From: Arabidopsis thaliana
Lineage: Eukaryota; Streptophyta; Magnoliopsida; Brassicales; Brassicaceae
Reading direction: 5' to 3'
Length of the DNA stretch: 64,000 nucleotides
Assembly: GCF_000001735.4 (NCBI RefSeq)
Contig: NC_003071.7
Location: forward strand, 13,881,151-13,945,150
Below the pieces are notes generated by a model that did not search any database, was not told the DNA's origin, and saw only the letters and a list, made by a program, of their open reading frames with translations. The position numbers and the translations under genes were made by a program. Below are positions 5,676 to 48,507 of the stretch, piece after piece; position 1 is the first letter of the stretch, and the number at the start of each line of letters is the position of its first letter.

Positions 5676-7082
5676 ATGGACAAATTCAATCCAAAAAAGG
5701 AAAAGACTGTGAAGAAACGAGCTCTAAAGGTTTTGACTGAAATCTCACCAACACCTTTGTTCTCCATGCTCTTTCTGCTTCACATCAGTCAAATTGCAAC
5801 CTATCTCTCTCTTTCCGACAAAGAAACCCTAAATATCACTGTGAAAACTAAACAAGGTGGAACAGATACTTGTGCCGGAAGATACGTGTATATGCACAAT
5901 CTTCCAAGCAGATTCAACGAAGATCTGATCAAGAGCTGTGAGGCATACATCGAATTACGAAACAAATGTAAGTACCTTATTAACTCTGGCTTCGGTCCAC
6001 GTATCTTGGAGGAAGATCATAACCATACCACTCGAGTCTTAACCATCGAGACCGGTTCTTGGTACTACACAAACCAATTCATGCTTGAGGTTATCTTCCG
6101 AGAGAAAATGAGACACTACGAGTGTTTGACCAACGATTCTTCCCTTTCTTCCGTGGTTTTCGTCCCGTTTTATGCTGGATTCGATGTGAGACGCTTTTGG
6201 GGATACAACGTTAAGCTGAGAGACGAACTTGGTGAAGATCTAGCTCAATGGCTTAGGGAGAGACCAGAGTGGAGGAAAATGTATGGACGAGATCATTTCT
6301 TTGTCACGGGACGGGTTGGTAGAGATTTCAGGAGGGTTACAGATCAAGATTCGGATTGGGGAAACAAACTGATGCGGTTGCCTGAATTCGAGAACATAAC
6401 TATGTTATCCATTGAGACAAATTCTAGGAGTAACGAGTTTGCGGTTCCTTATCCAACTTATTTCCATCCAAAGAGCCGAACCGAGGTTAAGAGATGGCAG
6501 AGGCAAGTGACGATGATGCAGAGACGATACTTGTTCTCGTTTGTCGGAGCTAATCGGCCAAAAATGGAGGAATCTATTAGAGGTGAGATTATAAGACAGT
6601 GCCTTGCATCACAAGGAAGATGCAAATTTCTTGATTGTGACACATCGAGTAAAGACTGTAGTGATCCGGTTAAGGTAGTGGAAGTTTTTCAAGATTCGGT
6701 TTTCTGTTTACAACCACCAGGAGATACACCTACTCGGAGATCAACATTTGATTCGATTTTAGCCGGTTGTATACCGGTTTTCTTTAGCGTTGATTCGGTC
6801 TATAACCAGTACAAGTGGTATTTTCCAAAAGATCGTACCAAGTACTCGGTTTACATCGCGGAGGAAGGTGTGAAAAAGGGGAAGGTTAGTATTGAGAAGT
6901 TATTGGCTAATGTTAGTGAAGAGAAGATTTCAAGGATGAGAAATGAGGTTGAGAAGATTATACCAAAGATAATTTATACAAAACCGGGGGAGGTTGGACC
7001 GGAAAAGATTGAAGATGCATTTGAAATTGCAGTGGCTAGGGTGCTTGAGAGAGTGTCATTGTTCAAGATGACACGGATCTAG
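5676..7082 (+). CDS. GT13: GT47 exostosin-family glycosyltransferase, first of a tandem pair
   Basis: Intronless, 468 aa. A short basic N-terminus (MDKFNPKKEKTVKKR) precedes one hydrophobic segment at about residues 25-47, giving a Golgi type II membrane protein. The lumenal domain begins at TDTCAGRYVYMHNLPSRFN and carries GT47 hallmarks: the Tyr/Trp/Asp-rich block FVPFYAGFDVRRFWGY, GRDHFFVTGRVGRDFRR, YPTYFHPKS, and the nucleotide-sugar region FCLQPPGDTPTRRSTFDSIL followed by AGCIPVFF. This is the MUR3/XLT2 xyloglucan galactosyltransferase clade; in that clade the reaction adds galactose to xyloglucan side chains, but the acceptor of this member cannot be read from sequence. It is closely related to the next gene at 8485-10020, on the same strand with 1.4 kb between. 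The start is the first ATG, just before the membrane segment. Confidence 0.93.
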   Translation: MDKFNPKKEKTVKKRALKVLTEISPTPLFSMLFLLHISQIATYLSLSDKETLNITVKTKQGGTDTCAGRYVYMHNLPSRFNEDLIKSCEAYIELRNKCKYLINSGFGPRILEEDHNHTTRVLTIETGSWYYTNQFMLEVIFREKMRHYECLTNDSSLSSVVFVPFYAGFDVRRFWGYNVKLRDELGEDLAQWLRERPEWRKMYGRDHFFVTGRVGRDFRRVTDQDSDWGNKLMRLPEFENITMLSIETNSRSNEFAVPYPTYFHPKSRTEVKRWQRQVTMMQRRYLFSFVGANRPKMEESIRGEIIRQCLASQGRCKFLDCDTSSKDCSDPVKVVEVFQDSVFCLQPPGDTPTRRSTFDSILAGCIPVFFSVDSVYNQYKWYFPKDRTKYSVYIAEEGVKKGKVSIEKLLANVSEEKISRMRNEVEKIIPKIIYTKPGEVGPEKIEDAFEIAVARVLERVSLFKMTRI

Positions 7083-8484: not shown

Positions 8485-10020
8485 ATGAAGATGATGAAAC
8501 CAGTTCCAAAGCTTTGGGTTGTCATCTCAAGTGCCTTTGTGTTCTGTCTTTTAGTTCTGTTTCAAATCAATAAATCAGATTTGATCGAAGCAAATCTCCA
8601 AATCACTCATCAAGTTAACAACTTCCTCATCTCCTTCGTTGCTTCTTCAAATAATCAAATCCTAAATCACACCAAACATGCGAATGAGAGTGATGGAATC
8701 AGAGCGAAACAGCTTGAGGAAGAAGAAACGGATACTTGCGCCGGAAGATACATCTACATGTACAATCTTCCAAGCACATTCAACGACGACATCATCAAAG
8801 AATGTCGTCCACTCATCAAATGGTTCGATATGTGTCCATTCATGGTCAATTCCGGGCTCGGTCCACAGATTTTGGTCTCCGATAAAACCACAGCTCGAGT
8901 CTTAACCGTGAAAACCGGTTCTTGGTACTCAACGAACCAATTCTTGCTTTCGGTTATCTTCCGAGAGAGGATGAAACACTACGAGTGTTTGACCAACAAC
9001 TCTTCTCTAGCCTCAGCGATCTATGTCCCATACTACGCAGGATTTGATGTGAGCCGTCACCTCTGGGGATACAACGTGACGGTTAGAGACGAATTGGCGA
9101 TAAAGCTGGCACAATGGCTGAGAGAGAGACCTGAATGGGGGAAGATGTACGGCCGAGATCACTTCTTTGTGACCGGACGGATTGGTTGGGATTTCAGGAG
9201 GTTTCACGATGAAGATTCAGATTGGGGAAGCAAACTGATGCTATTACCTGAATTCTCGAATCTGACAATGTTAGGTATCGAAACGACTGCTTGGGCTAAC
9301 GAATTTGCGATTCCTTATCCTACTTATTTCCATCCAAAGAGCTTAACAGAGATTTGGAGATGGCAGAAGAAAGTGAAGAGTGTGAAGAGGAAGTATTTGT
9401 TTTCGTTTGTTGGAGGTCCAAGACCTAAATTGGATGGATCTATTAGGGGAGAGATTATAAAGCAGTGCCTTGCATCTCACGGTAAATGCAACTTTCTTAA
9501 CTGCTTTGTTAATGACTGCGATAATCCGGTTAAGATAATGAAGGTGTTTGAAAATTCTGTCTTCTGTTTACAACCTTCGGGAGATTCGTACACTCGGAGA
9601 TCGATATTCGATTCGATTCTGGCGGGTTGTATACCGGTTTTCTTCAGCCCAGGTTCGGGTTACAACCAATATATTTGGTATTTTCCAAAGGATTATACCA
9701 AGTACTCGGTTTACATACCAGAGAATGAAATGAGAAATGGAACGGTTAGTCTCAAGAATATTTTGGGTATGATCGCTAAGGAGAGGATTTTGAGGATGAG
9801 AAAAGAGGTTGTGAAGATTATACCAAAAATCATATATAATAAACCAGGGTTTGGACCGGAGAAGATTGAAGATGCGTTTGACATTGCAGTGGATAGGATG
9901 CTTGAGAGGGTAGCAATGGTTAAGAGGATGATGGAAGAAGGGAAAGATGTTCAAAGTCAGTATTATTCACAGACAAAGGATTTGAAAAAACTTGAGATTA
10001 TACATGAAAAAACTGCTTAA
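8485..10020 (+). CDS. GT12: GT47 exostosin-family glycosyltransferase, second of a tandem pair
   Basis: Intronless, 511 aa, type II membrane protein. The membrane anchor is about residues 10-28 (LWVVISSAFVFCLLVLFQI), followed by a longer stem than its neighbour. The catalytic region starts at TDTCAGRYIYMYNLPS (about residue 86) and has VPYYAGFDVSRHLWGYNV, GRDHFFVTGRIGWDFRR, YPTYFHPKS, FCLQPSGDSYTRRSIFDSIL and AGCIPVFF, matching the upstream gene block for block. A Lys/Glu-rich C-terminal tail of about 30 residues (MMEEGKDVQSQYYSQTKDLK) is absent from the first copy. Same MUR3/XLT2-like clade; Golgi xyloglucan or related galactosyl transfer is inferred from family. The two genes are a tandem duplication. 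I see no lost key motif in either. Confidence 0.94.
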   Translation: MKMMKPVPKLWVVISSAFVFCLLVLFQINKSDLIEANLQITHQVNNFLISFVASSNNQILNHTKHANESDGIRAKQLEEEETDTCAGRYIYMYNLPSTFNDDIIKECRPLIKWFDMCPFMVNSGLGPQILVSDKTTARVLTVKTGSWYSTNQFLLSVIFRERMKHYECLTNNSSLASAIYVPYYAGFDVSRHLWGYNVTVRDELAIKLAQWLRERPEWGKMYGRDHFFVTGRIGWDFRRFHDEDSDWGSKLMLLPEFSNLTMLGIETTAWANEFAIPYPTYFHPKSLTEIWRWQKKVKSVKRKYLFSFVGGPRPKLDGSIRGEIIKQCLASHGKCNFLNCFVNDCDNPVKIMKVFENSVFCLQPSGDSYTRRSIFDSILAGCIPVFFSPGSGYNQYIWYFPKDYTKYSVYIPENEMRNGTVSLKNILGMIAKERILRMRKEVVKIIPKIIYNKPGFGPEKIEDAFDIAVDRMLERVAMVKRMMEEGKDVQSQYYSQTKDLKKLEIIHEKTA

Positions 10021-35156: not shown

Positions 35157-35327
35157 ATGATAAAATCACATATATTTCTAGAAAGAAGACACACTATAAA
35201 TAAAAACATCCTTGCTGGCAAAAATCCATCATTCAATTTTGGTCGGTCAAATAGATCGTCACAAAATGTTATAAAGCATTATCACATCTTTAAATTCATT
35301 CACATTTCGATATCTTTACACATTCAC

Positions 35328-37883
35328 ATGGCGCCAATGGCTATGGATCATCTCTGTTTCGTACTACCGACAGAATCCGGCGAGTTAAAGCCACCGGTGA
35401 TGGTCGAGGAGACCACAGAAGAAGAAGAGGAGAAGAAGAGTCGTGATTGTGGACGTCAAGTTGTGAGTTTAATCGGAGATTTATTCCGGCGATTACACGG
35501 CTCTAAGTTGGTGAAGAGCTTGAATCTCTGTAGTATCAACGAGAGTAAAGATTCGATTTCAATGGAGATCAATAAATCATTCACTGACATGGAAGGTGTT
35601 CAGCTTTCCAGCAAAGTCGGTTGCGAGAATCCAAGAATCTTTGGATACTCTGAGCTTTATATCGGAACTAATGGTTTCAGCGACGAACTGATCCTCGGAA
35701 GCGGCGGTTTCGGCCGCGTTTACAAGGCGTTGTTACCGAGCGACGGAACCACCGTGGCTGTTAAATGCTTGGCGGAGAAGAAAGGAGAACAATTCGAGAA
35801 AACTTTCGCGGCGGAGCTTGTTGCGGTGGCTCAGCTCCGCCATCGAAATCTTGTGAAGTTAAGAGGTTGGTGTCTACACGAAGACGAGTTGCTTCTTGTT
35901 TACGATTACATGCCTAACCGGAGCTTAGATCGTGTGCTTTTCCGACGACCGGAAGTTAACTCCGATTTTAAACCGTTGGATTGGGATCGGAGGGGTAAAA
36001 TCGTCAAAGGACTCGCCGCCGCGTTGTTCTACCTCCACGAGCAGTTAGAGACTCAGATCATTCACAGAGATGTGAAGACGAGTAACGTTATGTTGGATTC
36101 TGAGTTTAACGCTAAACTCGGAGATTTTGGTTTAGCTCGGTGGTTAGAACACAAGATTGATGAAACAGAGCATGATTCGAGTTACGACTCTGTTTCTTCC
36201 TTCCGTAACCACCAGTTCCGAGTCGCGGATTCGACTCGGATCGGTGGGACTATCGGGTACTTACCACCGGAGAGTTTCCGGAAAAAAACCGTTGCCACCG
36301 CTAAAACAGATGTTTTCAGCTTTGGTGTTGTGGTTTTAGAGGTTGTCTCCGGTAGACGAGCCGTTGATCTTTCGTTCTCGGAAGATAAAATCATTTTACT
36401 TGATTGGGTTCGGAGATTATCCGATAACCGGAAATTACTCGACGCCGGGGATTCTCGGTTAGCAAAAGGATCTTATGATCTCTCTGATATGAAGAGAATG
36501 ATTCATCTTGCTCTGCTCTGTTCTTTAAACAATCCAACGCATCGTCCCAACATGAAATGGGTTATCGGAGCACTTTCCGGCGAGTTTTCCGGTAACTTAC
36601 CGGCGTTACCTTCGTTTAAGAGCCATCCTCTTTATATTCCTTTATCTTCTTTAAAATCAACCTCAACTTCGGCGACTACGACTACTACAAGAACAACGAT
36701 GACCACCACCACCTCCACAACTAGCTTCAATGCGTCGTCGGAGTCAACGCCGTCATCAAATTACGTTACTGCCCTTGAGGATTCTATTTACCAGACGGCG
36801 GAGACTGGAGAAAATCCGTACTTTAATTACAACAGCCGGAGAGTGATGTCATCAAAGTCTTTCGTATTGGACACGCCAAGAGAGATTTCATACAACGACC
36901 TTGTTTTAGCCACTGATAATTTCTCTGATGCACGTCGCGTTGCTGAGGTTGATTTTGGTACGGCTTATTATGGTTTACTAAATGGAGACCAACATATTGT
37001 GGTGAAACGTCTCGGTATGACTAAATGTCCGGCGCTTGTTACCCGGTTCTCCACTGAACTACTTAACCTAGGCCGGCTTCGACACCGTAACCTAGTAATG
37101 CTCCGTGGTTGGTGCACCGAACACGGAGAAATGCTTGTAGTGTACGATTATTCCGCGAATCGTAAGCTAAGTCATCTTCTTTTCCATAATCATATACCTG
37201 GAAACTCTGTTTTGCGATGGAAAAGTCGGTACAACGTGATCAAATCGCTTGCTTGCGCTGTACGTTATCTCCACGAGGAATGGGACGAACAAGTCATTCA
37301 CCGAAACATTACTTCTTCAACTATATTTCTTGATAGAGATATGAATCCGCGGCTTTGCGGATTCGCATTGGCAGAGTTTTTGTCTAGAAACGACAAGGCT
37401 CATCAAGCTGCAAAAAAGAAAGGATCTGCTCAAGGGATTTTTGGTTATATGGCACCAGAATACATGGAATCCGGCGAGGCTACAACCATGGCGGATGTAT
37501 ACAGCTTTGGCGTGGTAGTGCTCGAGATGGTTACGGGGCAGCCAGCAGTGGATTACAAGAGGAAAAAAGAAGATGCTCTTATGGTGTTGCGAATCCGCGA
37601 AGTAGTTGGTAACCGAAAAAAACTCTTGGAGGAGATTGCAGATATTCATTTGGATGATGAATACGAGAATCGAGAATTGGCAAGGCTATTACGGTTAGGG
37701 TTAGTTTGCACGAGAACCGATCCGAAGTTAAGGCCTAGCATTAGCCAAGTGGTGAGTATATTGGATGGAAGCGAGAGGTTCTTCGAAGAGGAAGGAGGAA
37801 AGGAAGGTGACGTTAGCCGCAAGCAAATGTATGATTCGTCTATGTTGATGATTAGACAAATGCAAGCGCTTGGGATCCATTGA
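35328..37883 (+). CDS. AP4.3A: Cytoplasmic tandem kinase-pseudokinase of the lectin-receptor-kinase clade
   Basis: Intronless, 851 aa from the ATG at 35328 (GGCGCC follows). The frame is open upstream to 35157, but that extension is AT-rich leader-like sequence. No signal peptide, lectin domain or membrane segment is present, although the kinase resembles L-type lectin receptor kinases (LecRK-S.2 by my recall). Kinase 1 (~120-420) looks active: GSGGFGRVYK, VAVKCL (Lys146), HRDVKTSN (Asp248), GDFGLAR (Asp267), GTIGYLPPES. A Ser/Thr-rich linker (~440-475) follows. Kinase 2 (~530-815) keeps VVKRL (Lys560), RHRNLVMLRGWC and GYMAPEY, but the glycine loop reads AEVDFGTAYYG, HRD is HRN (Asn660) and DFG is CGF, so it is a predicted pseudokinase. 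The N-terminus is acidic (EETTEEEEEKK). Role unknown; tandem kinase proteins of other plants act in immunity. Confidence 0.92.
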   Translation: MAPMAMDHLCFVLPTESGELKPPVMVEETTEEEEEKKSRDCGRQVVSLIGDLFRRLHGSKLVKSLNLCSINESKDSISMEINKSFTDMEGVQLSSKVGCENPRIFGYSELYIGTNGFSDELILGSGGFGRVYKALLPSDGTTVAVKCLAEKKGEQFEKTFAAELVAVAQLRHRNLVKLRGWCLHEDELLLVYDYMPNRSLDRVLFRRPEVNSDFKPLDWDRRGKIVKGLAAALFYLHEQLETQIIHRDVKTSNVMLDSEFNAKLGDFGLARWLEHKIDETEHDSSYDSVSSFRNHQFRVADSTRIGGTIGYLPPESFRKKTVATAKTDVFSFGVVVLEVVSGRRAVDLSFSEDKIILLDWVRRLSDNRKLLDAGDSRLAKGSYDLSDMKRMIHLALLCSLNNPTHRPNMKWVIGALSGEFSGNLPALPSFKSHPLYIPLSSLKSTSTSATTTTTRTTMTTTTSTTSFNASSESTPSSNYVTALEDSIYQTAETGENPYFNYNSRRVMSSKSFVLDTPREISYNDLVLATDNFSDARRVAEVDFGTAYYGLLNGDQHIVVKRLGMTKCPALVTRFSTELLNLGRLRHRNLVMLRGWCTEHGEMLVVYDYSANRKLSHLLFHNHIPGNSVLRWKSRYNVIKSLACAVRYLHEEWDEQVIHRNITSSTIFLDRDMNPRLCGFALAEFLSRNDKAHQAAKKKGSAQGIFGYMAPEYMESGEATTMADVYSFGVVVLEMVTGQPAVDYKRKKEDALMVLRIREVVGNRKKLLEEIADIHLDDEYENRELARLLRLGLVCTRTDPKLRPSISQVVSILDGSERFFEEEGGKEGDVSRKQMYDSSMLMIRQMQALGIH

Positions 37884-38259: not shown

Positions 38260-41200
38260 CTAAAAACTGAGGTCACTCATGTTTTGAGACGGGGAACATC
38301 GTGACATAACCGCTAAAGTCTTTAAAGTTCCGCTACATGGGTCACTGATAAAAGCAGTATTTGATACCTCGATGAAGCAGCTGTTGCGTCCTTTACAAGC
38401 CTGCAGAAGAGAGCAAAGAACTGTTCAGATAGTCCACAAAATTTATAGTACGCAATTGCTACGAACCTGTTTTAGAGCTATATGTCAACAATTTGCACCC
38501 AAAATATTTCTACTAGCTTGCTTAGGAAATTAAGATCATCATAAGTTCTACTTTGGATTATAATTGGAGTTATGTTTCCAGCACCGGTTTTTAGATTCCT
38601 TCGTATGATTGAATCAGTTGCCAGTGTTGCAGGCAATATAATTTTACCTCAGAGACGATTGATAATGAGTTGGATGCATGACATTTCCCGATAGAAAACC
38701 CGTCGCAGCTACCTCTTGGAGTCCCATAGCTAGCAAATTCTATGGAGGATATGACATGTCCATCTTCACAATGCAGATGCACTTCTGGTGCCACACTGTT
38801 TATCGACATTGTTCCGTTTATGTAATCTGGTGTGGACCATTTCCGCAGAGGTGGATAATGCGATTCCGAGACTTGACCGCACAGAATCCCAGCAGTAACT
38901 GTCTTAACCGATATCTTAAATGGGTTTCCCCCAGTCTCTTCAAAGAGCACAAGTAGATTACTTGACGGCTTTAACCACGAACGCGGTACATGGTACCTGT
39001 ACAATGATATTATGTCAGTACCATGGCATTCAATAGTCATTGCGGAGTTATTACATGCACATTACCTGGTTTGTGTAGGCTTTCCACAATTTGTTGTGCA
39101 CTTATCTGAATTGTAGGCTCCACGATAATCACAGGTTCTGTCACATCCATCCTTTTGGGAAATGATATTCCAATACCTTCCAATATGTTGTCCATTGACC
39201 CAAGCTTGCCCCCTTCCCATACTTTCCAGATTAAGAACAACAGGATCTGTTCCGGCCGGGGGGTCAAAGTATGTCTAATTCAATAAGGGGAAAAAAAATG
39301 AACAATGATCAGTAGATTAATGAGGGACGGTAATACGAAAACATCTTTGTTTTCGGAGAAACGAGAAAACAAAACGCCAACATGTTTCACAGATTTACCT
39401 TGTACCACATGAAGATCGAAGGTGAAGCATCGGTCTCCAAAGTACTCCACTCAGCTTTTTCATTGTGTTCAACAGTATATATTTTATCAGCCTCGCCCTT
39501 CAATCCCACCTATAACAAACGCCAAACATTCAATGCTTCCAAAATAATCTTCATATTTCAGATAAAGCGAGAGAAAGAAAAAAGAATCCACAACGTTCAA
39601 CTTTTTTTAAGACATATAATTTTAAACCATATGCACGCTAACTACACCTGATACGTCCATGACGATTTTGACAGGTCTAAATCTCCATTCTTGAATCCAG
39701 TAAGCTTAGCTTTGCCTCTAAAACCGGCTCCATCCTTCTCCAAGAAAGCACCATAATTCTGTGCCACAAAGTCGAAAGTGATCACAATTAGCTGTAAGAA
39801 AAAAGATAAAAAGAGAAATTAGGTAGTAGATATTAACCTGTAAACCAACTGTTTGAGTCAACAGAAGTAAATCATTGTTTCCCTGTATAAATCGTACAGG
39901 CTGCACTGCCTTCACCCAGTGACCAACAATACTGCCTTTACTTCCATTCAGCAGGAGGAAAAAGTTAGCACAAGATGGGAGAAAACAATTTATAAAGCGT
40001 TGCACTTTATGAAAGCTATAACCCTCATGTATAGTTAGACACAGCGAATCACAAGAGACGGCATACCCAACCACGAACAGACACAATACAGGAGCAGTGC
40101 ATTTGTACAATTGCAGACATGCATAAAAAGCAGGAGTGAGTGTTGTAAATTACCTGCGAGTTGTTTGTTAACAAACACACGTAACACATCCCTCATGCTA
40201 TCAATCGACACTGTTGAGTTAGGTCCATTTTTCTTCCAGAACGAGATATCATCTTCAGATACGCTTATTCTACATTTGGTTGACAAAGAAGCAAAAAGCC
40301 ATTACATACAACAAACAACTTCCGGTAATTCAGTCAAATTATGATGTAAAAGCATCTTGAATATCTATCTTGTAGGAATTCTTTCCCTTCAATGGTTGAT
40401 GTTAGTTAGATCATGAAATAGACAACTCCGCATCTACCTTGTCTTATGCCACAGGTAATCAGACCGGTCTTTTGTAACATTCAAATGCTCCAATAATCCT
40501 TGGAAAGTGAAATTGTTTTCACCCCATATGCCAATAGGTTCTTTCAGAGCCATCCATGATTTTGAGATATAAGAAACATTATCCTGCCTCACGACTTTTT
40601 GCAGTATAGACATACTACCTAAAGATGGCCTTGCAGACTCAACCGTTTTAACAGAAGTTTGTGCTCCTACCTGCTCAAGAACAGACAAAAACGATAATGT
40701 CAGGAATCATCTTGGGGGCGAACTACTATCTGAAGCAATTAAAAAAGCCAATTTCCTGATTAAGAGAGAAATGTCAAGTTCACAGAGGACGATATTTGAG
40801 GCTGGGGCAGTTTCAAAAATGAAACAATAGAAACAGAACTAGTCCAACAGTGACAGTTTTTTTAAAAATCCAGTCACAAAGAACCATATCAGTAATGTGC
40901 TAAAGGAATTTTCAGACCACTGGACTAAATTTAAGAAAGACAAACTGTCAACAAAAACCATTCCAGAATTTCACAAGCAATTACCAGTCAAAAGAATTTA
41001 GAATACCGGTAGAAATGGAAATCAAACCTTGGCAGTGTTGAAGGCCACATGTCGACAGTCTGGCAATATACTCACTGACCAAGGTGGTAAAGTATATGAC
41101 TGGCCATTAAATTTCACATGTGCAGATTTATGCTCATCAATGTTTGCGAGAAATGCAGCGCACACCTTTCCTCCAGTCTCACCATCTCCATGATAAATGT

Positions 41201-46603: not shown

Positions 46604-48507
46604 TCAAACCGGGACTTTTCTACCGGAATTTGCCACAGTCATCTCCACCACCGTATCTCCGCCGCTTTGTTCCTCATCTTCTCTCGAAATCTCTTCCAAA
46701 GACTTCCCTTTAGACTCCGGAACCAACAGAGTAAAAACAATCCCCAAGAAATTAACACAAGCAAGCATCAACAACGAATTCCTAACACCAATCCCAGGAG
46801 GATAACCAGCATCAGTCTTCTCCGAATCCGAACTCTGCGCCGCGTAAAGAAACCCAAACGCTCCAACAATCGCTCCCGCCTTACCACTCGCCGCCGATAT
46901 CCCATGACAAGTCGATCTCAACCTCGCCGGAAATATCTCAGCAGGAACAACAAACGTCGTCGCATTAGGTCCAAAATTAGCGAAGAACATAGTCAACGAA
47001 TACATAATCAAAAAACCAATTCGATTCTCTCTATGTCTCCAATGATCATAAGGAATCGCTAAAGCGAACATAAAGATCGTCATGAAGATAAATCCCATCA
47101 ACTGGATGAAGAATCGACCGAGTATATCGATGAATGCGACGGTGAACCAGTAACCAGGGACGGTGCCGCAGAGAGCGATTAGGGTTTGAGCTTTTGAGAC
47201 GGTGAAGACTTCGTGGATTGCGTTCATTGTTTCGGCGGCGGGAATCCATCCGATTGCTGTGTAGATGTCTTTTTGGAAGAGGTTGCTGCTGTAATAGGCG
47301 ATGTCTAGGAGGAACCATGTGGTGGTTGTGCCGAGAAGGTGGAGACCGTGACGGCGAGCGAATTCTCTGGTGAATAAACCGAAGGTGAAATTAGGGTTTG
47401 ATGAATTTGAATTTGATTGTGCTTCTTCTTCTGCAATTAGATCCACTTGAAGCACCTGTTGTGTAAATAATAATTACTTTTACACTAATCATCATGGTTT
47501 AGTATGATGATTTAGTATATGATGAAATTAAGTATTAGTTAAGGAACGTGTACCTTAGACATATCGGAGGCGGCTTGTTTGGTATTCCGAGCTACAAGAG
47601 CGGTATACCGAGCAGTTTCCGGCATTTTCATCCGCCAATAATAAGTAAGTAAAGCTGGGATAGCTCCAAACATGAGCACAATCCGCCACACGTAATCCGC
47701 TTGAGGAACAGTGGAGCCAACAGGATCAACCTCGTAGGTGGGCGCTTTGAAGGCATGGTCAAATGTACTCGAGACGATGAGAGACACGATTCCTCCGGCT
47801 AAGATTCCGAAGCCTTGCATAGCGAAGACGGCTGCTATGAAGGCGCCACGTGTTTTCTTGTTGGCGTATTCCGACATGATGGTGGCTGAGAGAGGGTAGT
47901 CGCCGCCTATGCCGAAACCGAGCCAGAACCGGAAGAAACAAAGTGTGGCCATTACTCCGTTAGCTGAGTGACCAAATGATAGACCAGACCCGAGAGAACA
48001 TAGTACCATGAGCATCAAGGTAATACCTATGTGTATTCCAATAATTTTCATTATATACCATTAGTTAATTTAGCCACTAAATACTATAATTAATAGTTCT
48101 AGTATTACCAATGGATCAAATACTTTGAATTAATCTAGATAGATCATTTTAAACGTAAAACTACTAAAACATATGTTAAGGCCAAGAAATTAGCAAAGGT
48201 TACCGTAAACTTTCTTGCGGCCGAGCTTGTCACCGAGCCAACCGAAGAAGAGCTGGCCTGCTAAGGTACCGCAGAAGGCCACACCATTAACAGCGGCAGC
48301 AACATTAGGAGGGAGCGTTCCAGGCTTCTTGGAGCTATCAACGTGGTAGTATATGCGGCCTAGGAGCTTCGTGACGAGGGAGATGCTAAATAGATCGTAA
48401 GCATCAGTGAAAAAACCCATACCCGCGATTACAATCGCTGTGAAATGGTACATCTGCGTTTTGGCTGCGTCCAAAGCGTTCAACACTTCTTTTCCTTTTT
48501 TCGCCAT
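46604..48507 (-). CDS. PHT1;5: High-affinity phosphate transporter PHT1;5
   Basis: Three exons on the minus strand (48507-48204, 48026-47554, 47455-46604) give 542 aa, the usual PHT1 length. Major facilitator superfamily H+/phosphate symporter with 12 membrane helices. Visible hallmarks: the N-terminus [46 protein letters not shown], the PHT1 signature [16 protein letters not shown], the large central loop (after [16 protein letters not shown]), and [19 protein letters not shown] in the second half. The C-terminal tail is hydrophilic ([15 protein letters not shown], then [15 protein letters not shown]). Located in the plasma membrane; PHT1;5 is known for moving phosphate between source and sink organs. 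A GNATATNC (P1BS) match lies about 575 bp upstream of the ATG and fits control by PHR1. No damage seen. Confidence 0.97.

Follow-up and report, generated by a model that had tools for sequence, protein, structure and literature searches.

Arabidopsis thaliana carries on chromosome 2 a gene that appears to encode two protein kinases in one chain, the second of them degenerate, and the question it raises is whether this is a tandem kinase protein (TKP) like those of cereals and, if so, what such a protein could do. The pseudokinase half of the cereal tandem kinases, which are resistance genes, is poorly understood, and At2g32800, as we name the gene below, is of interest as apparently the single tandem kinase-pseudokinase of Arabidopsis. 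The initial annotation of the locus had proposed an independent example of the cereal design, possibly an immune receptor or decoy.

Gene identity and coding frame

The window (the whole stretch of DNA that was analysed, 64 kb) contains one uninterrupted open frame in which translation and Pfam place two kinase domains (Table 1), the Pfam Pkinase family matching the protein in two stretches (E 6.1e-70). We take this frame to be At2g32800 (LecRK-S.2, AP4.3A), a name based on the chromosome position. The name agrees with published dual-kinase descriptions and with a phosphopeptide of AT2G32800.1 that is present in the translated protein. The frame runs in-frame upstream to an ATG at 35157, and because this ATG sits 5' of the TATA-like site, the ATG at 35328 is predicted to be the likelier start.

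Exon-like frames on the minus strand (38591-40688) lie tail to tail with At2g32800 and look like beta-galactosidase exons, which we take to be those of BGAL9 (At2g32810). Farther away, two similar adjacent frames on the same strand (5676-7082 and 8485-10020) are presumably exostosin-type glycosyltransferases, and a minus-strand frame (46604-47455) presumably represents part of a phosphate transporter. Rfam at the gathering threshold and ARAGORN returned zero matches over the 64-kb window.

Table 1 Features of the At2g32800 locus in window coordinates
Feature	Position	Strand	Details
Coding frame of At2g32800 / LecRK-S.2 / AP4.3A, intronless	35328..37883	+	851 aa + stop; Chr2 13916478-13919033
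TATA-box-like TATAAAT	35195..35201	+	133 bases 5' of ATG 35328; predicted from sequence
N-terminal region, residues 1-102	35328..35633	+	No Pfam domain; no strongly hydrophobic stretch in first 60 residues
Kinase 1, ~residues 103-420	35634..36587	+	GSGGFG, K146, E163, HRD 246-248, K250, N253, DFG 266-268
Kinase 1 activation segment, DFG to PPE, residues 266-315	36123..36272	+	50 residues; motif measurement
Linker between kinases, ~residues 421-517	36588..36878	+	Ser/Thr-rich stretch; translation; no Pfam domain
Kinase 2 (pseudokinase), ~residues 518-814	36879..37769	+	20/71 family-conserved columns lost
beta3 Lys560 of kinase 2, retained	37005..37007	+	Alignment
Thr565 of kinase 2, phosphorylated in published peptide	37020..37022	+	Peptide of PMC3380553 (accessible text) mapped to translation
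HRN (658-660) replacing HRD, kinase 2	37299..37307	+	Alignment
GFA (678-680) replacing DFG, kinase 2	37359..37367	+	Alignment

A complete kinase followed by a pseudokinase

We compared both domains with 30 paralogues of the lectin receptor kinase (LecRK) clade at the 71 columns that are at least 90% conserved among them, omitting the clade member L014 for its long branch. Kinase 1 keeps 64 of these columns and has lost 0/13 of the nucleotide/catalytic ones, so far as sequence can tell a catalytically complete kinase of RD type. Its K146 and D248 (HRD) were located where the initial annotation had given them, while the DFG Asp, annotated as residue 267, is D266, and 267 is Phe. The kinase 1 activation segment is also the unaligned stretch in the BAK1 sequence match of the PDB comparison; the equivalent segment measures 34 residues in kinase 2 and 29-32 in 26/30 paralogues, the motif being unmatched in the other four.

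Kinase 2 keeps 51/71 conserved columns, and its losses fall on 9/13 nucleotide/catalytic columns versus 11/58 others (Fisher p 0.0008, the 13 columns having been picked after the table had been seen). Lost, in kinase 1 numbering, are G124, G126, V131, A144, D248, K250, N253, D266 and G268, and the four retained are G129, K146, E163 and F267. The broken glycine loop that had been annotated corresponds to G124 -> A539 and G126 -> V541, and HRN for HRD, likewise annotated, is recovered by the alignment, with D248 -> N660 and D266 -> G678 at the catalytic Asp positions. The reading of CGF for DFG needs correction: the triplet in register is G678-F679-A680, with C677 aligned to the Gly preceding DFG, so that the DFG Asp is replaced by Gly. 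Further catalytic-loop losses, absent from the annotated list, are K250 -> T662 and N253 -> T665. Retained residues include K560, at its annotated position, E577, the APE motif (709-711), D723 and R802; we take K560 and E577 to be the beta3 Lys and the alphaC Glu. Judged by these residues, kinase 2 is a pseudokinase, with most fold residues kept and most catalytic ones lost.

The accessible text of a nitrogen resupply study on Arabidopsis seedlings (PMC3380553) prints the phosphopeptide LG(oxM)(pT)KCPALVTR for AT2G32800.1, in a row whose two condition marks are both blank. Mapped to the translation, the phosphorylated residue is T565, five residues past the beta3 Lys of kinase 2.

Missing receptor parts

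A hydropathy scan found no membrane segment in the protein: the best 19-residue value is 1.52 (residues 322-340, inside kinase 1), versus at least 2.2 in 29/30 paralogues, which bears out the annotated lack of a membrane helix. Within the first 60 residues the best value is 0.55. Pfam gave kinase twice and zero non-kinase families above its cut-off, in keeping with the annotated lack of a lectin domain.

The one paralogue without a membrane segment, L063 (C3:17222126-17222971), is itself a single-kinase, LecRK-like protein of 366 residues; its glycine loop is altered, the alphaC Glu is missing and DFG reads DYG. From its position it is perhaps LecRK-S.3 (At3g46760), the second ambiguous gene of PMC5322546.

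A protein stripped of receptor parts could serve general receptor-kinase signalling, in development or under abiotic stress, as a scaffold or adaptor that can do without its kinase activity. Besides the missing parts, the accessible texts of the nitrogen resupply study (PMC3380553) and of an integration paper on stress and root transcripts that lists At2g32800 (PMC1896000) are consistent with such a role. However, a pure scaffold would need none of the nucleotide/catalytic columns and kinase 1 keeps 13/13, and we consider this explanation rather doubtful.

Origin of the two kinases within the LecRK clade

The paralogue set consisted of the best 30 loci per kinase search of the genome, and only the best candidates were scored. 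Among these, the best-scoring match of kinase 1 is 50% identical to it and that of kinase 2 is 40% identical, shorter fragments reach 55% identity to kinase 1, and identity between the two kinases themselves is 36-37%. In a 43-row tree, no branch of which set the outgroup apart from all other rows, both kinases grouped within a 33-row clade of LecRK kinases at 100/99 support, as the annotated resemblance to lectin receptor kinases would predict. We take the 33 rows to be LecRKs from their positions and sizes. Among PDB sequence matches, the lectin-family kinase 6cth is the best of kinase 2 and the third of kinase 1, behind two BAK1 entries.

The annotation had also called for a phylogeny of each domain separately, asking whether they come from one duplication or two sources. 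Both domains belong among LecRK kinases, and their sister kinship depended on the rows included. After removal of L014, L018, L020, L032, L035 and L037, the 37-row tree did not make them sisters, and constraining them together cost 0.16 log units (p-AU 0.5). When five further rows, all outgroup (L023, L027, L031, L034 and L038), were removed, they became sisters at 85/71, on long branches. Residues private to both kinases are identical at 4/19 positions, or 5/27 under the rule used for the control; since the control pair of L019 and kinase 2 likewise shares 5 private residues (66 pairs examined), these are no evidence of sister kinship. Among prokaryote genome contigs, 7 stretches fit a search pattern and 0 were relatives.

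No end branch among the 43 rows is longer than that of kinase 2 (1.35; kinase 1: 0.73), as might be expected if the fusion were decaying and kinase 2 were a passenger on its way out. The frame of kinase 2 is nevertheless open throughout, the conserved columns it retains and the clustering of its losses in catalytic ones argue against general decay, and the accessible texts of PMC3380553 and PMC5322546 report a kinase 2 peptide and two-kinase relatives in other species, respectively, which makes decay very improbable.

Published record of the architecture

The kinase-pseudokinase architecture of At2g32800 is already known and not new. As far as the accessible parts of the papers go, "dual protein kinase domains" have been in print for it since 2007 (PMC1867859, PMC1896000). 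A 2014 paper (PMC4112214) names just one other Arabidopsis protein with two kinases, At1g11300; this was a misannotation and has since been split (PMC5889549), so At2g32800 would be the sole remaining member of that set. According to a figure legend, two-kinase L-type LecRKs occur in every species of PMC5322546 but papaya; this survey counts At2g32800 as one of two ambiguous genes. A spruce clone has been annotated with the locus At2g32800 (PMC3433439). In print, the gene spans 2559 bp for wheat TraesCS5D02G166400 and 2526 bp for bean Phvul.008G139200 (PMC5751106); both lengths are multiples of three near the 2556 bp of At2g32800, which suggests intronless orthologues, the orthology being that of those papers' annotation.

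In the accessible text of Klymiuk 2018 (PMC6170490), the TKP family is polyphyletic: WTK1 arose by fusion (WAK x RLCK_8), and clade 6 (L-LPK) arose from an ancient duplication presumed to precede the monocot-eudicot split. We infer that At2g32800 belongs to clade 6, although the available main text does not name it. Its name is likewise absent from the available text of a Populus survey (PMC5007699), whose two-kinase case is a G-type fusion. Searching the open-access literature by locus and alias, we found no functional study of At2g32800 in the texts accessible to us.

Links to immunity and stress

The accessible text of a bean paper (PMC5751106) cites other work in which flg22 and strains carrying effectors induced At2g32800, and it names a bean homologue as the single candidate in a QTL interval. 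AP4.3A stands among the aphid-specific upregulated genes of PMC3607608; because the name appears only once in the available text, it would not be among the Pseudomonas-specific genes. LecRK-S.2 is among the upregulated transcripts of virus-treated cowpea (PMC10455494), and a wheat S.2 gene, one among many, is in a Septoria QTL table. By contrast, the sesame S.2 candidate showed high expression at no time point in the text available, and W-box cores were not enriched in the 1-kb promoter of At2g32800 (2 versus a background mean of 1.9). An immune role of At2g32800 is thus circumstantial, drawn from expression and QTL listings with negatives against it.

These listings bear on a wheat-type immune sensor, in which the pseudokinase would be an effector decoy and effector binding would allow activation of a helper NLR by kinase 1. 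The architecture is shared with the TKP family, and the wheat tandem kinases Sr62 and RWT4/WTK3 depend on an NLR (accessible text of PMC12830362); the biotic-stress reports from bean, cowpea and aphids also speak for such a sensor. However, no tie between At2g32800 and an NLR and no resistance genetics were found in the portions of the literature available, kinase 1 is RD while WTK1 KinI is non-RD, two-kinase LecRKs are spread over many plants rather than one lineage (PMC5322546), and neither the promoter nor the sesame candidate points to immunity. We therefore regard such a sensor as unlikely. Of the annotated proposal of an independent immune tandem kinase, the separate origin fits the polyphyletic TKPs of Klymiuk 2018, whereas the receptor or decoy role is unsupported by the W-boxes, the sesame expression and the RD kinase 1.

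A proposed cis-regulated kinase

The explanation that we favour, giving it about an even chance, is that At2g32800 is an expressed tandem kinase in which an active, soluble RD kinase is regulated in cis by its own pseudokinase, in general stress or pattern-triggered signalling. Kinase 1 would be the active partner, as its residues predict; by analogy with the JAK pseudokinase, kinase 2 would hold and regulate it; and possible switches are phosphorylation near Thr565, the linker and the long activation segment of kinase 1. The protein would then act in general signalling and not as a race-specific receptor. Consistent with this are the two kinases in one frame, the concentration of kinase 2 losses on nucleotide/catalytic columns, the placement in the LecRK clade and, as far as the accessible sources go, the kinase 2 phosphopeptide, the two-kinase LecRKs elsewhere and the L-LPK clade of TKPs. 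The wheat-type decoy and NLR reading is less likely than a cis-regulated RD kinase. AlphaFold, run on the full protein alone and with a two-row alignment of kinase 2 and kinase 1, gave mean pLDDT of 32.3 and 36.5, too poor for an interdomain model.

A bolder version, which we hold only tentatively and think probably wrong as a whole, is that the sole genuine Arabidopsis tandem kinase is an old, conserved, cis-regulated kinase-pseudokinase switch, a plant parallel to JAKs that is separate from the cereal resistance proteins and could serve as a simple genetic model for how they work. Since Arabidopsis seems to have one such protein, as the available parts of two papers combined indicate, a single knockout with domain swaps could reveal the role of the pseudokinase half.

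Comparison with known systems

At2g32800 adds no new kind of system. With TKPs such as WTK1/Yr15 and RPG1 it shares a tandem kinase and pseudokinase with no further domain and no membrane segment, and a pseudokinase half that has lost the glycine loop and both catalytic Asp positions (for At2g32800, on sequence only). It differs in that both of its domains are of LecRK type and kinase 1 is RD, whereas WTK1, in the text accessible to us, is a fusion of WAK and RLCK_8 kinases whose KinI is non-RD; and a disease-resistance role has been shown for some TKPs, while the reports for At2g32800 are circumstantial. Arabidopsis L-type lectin receptor kinases resemble it in their kinase domains, at the identities given above, but At2g32800 has two kinases and lacks the lectin domain and membrane segment. 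In animal Janus kinases (JAKs) the domain order is reversed, with the pseudokinase first. Kinship with JAKs stops at the kinase fold, and the likeness would therefore be convergent. What At2g32800 and JAKs have in common is a kinase and a pseudokinase on one chain, an analogy that the accessible text of PMC6170490 draws for TKPs.
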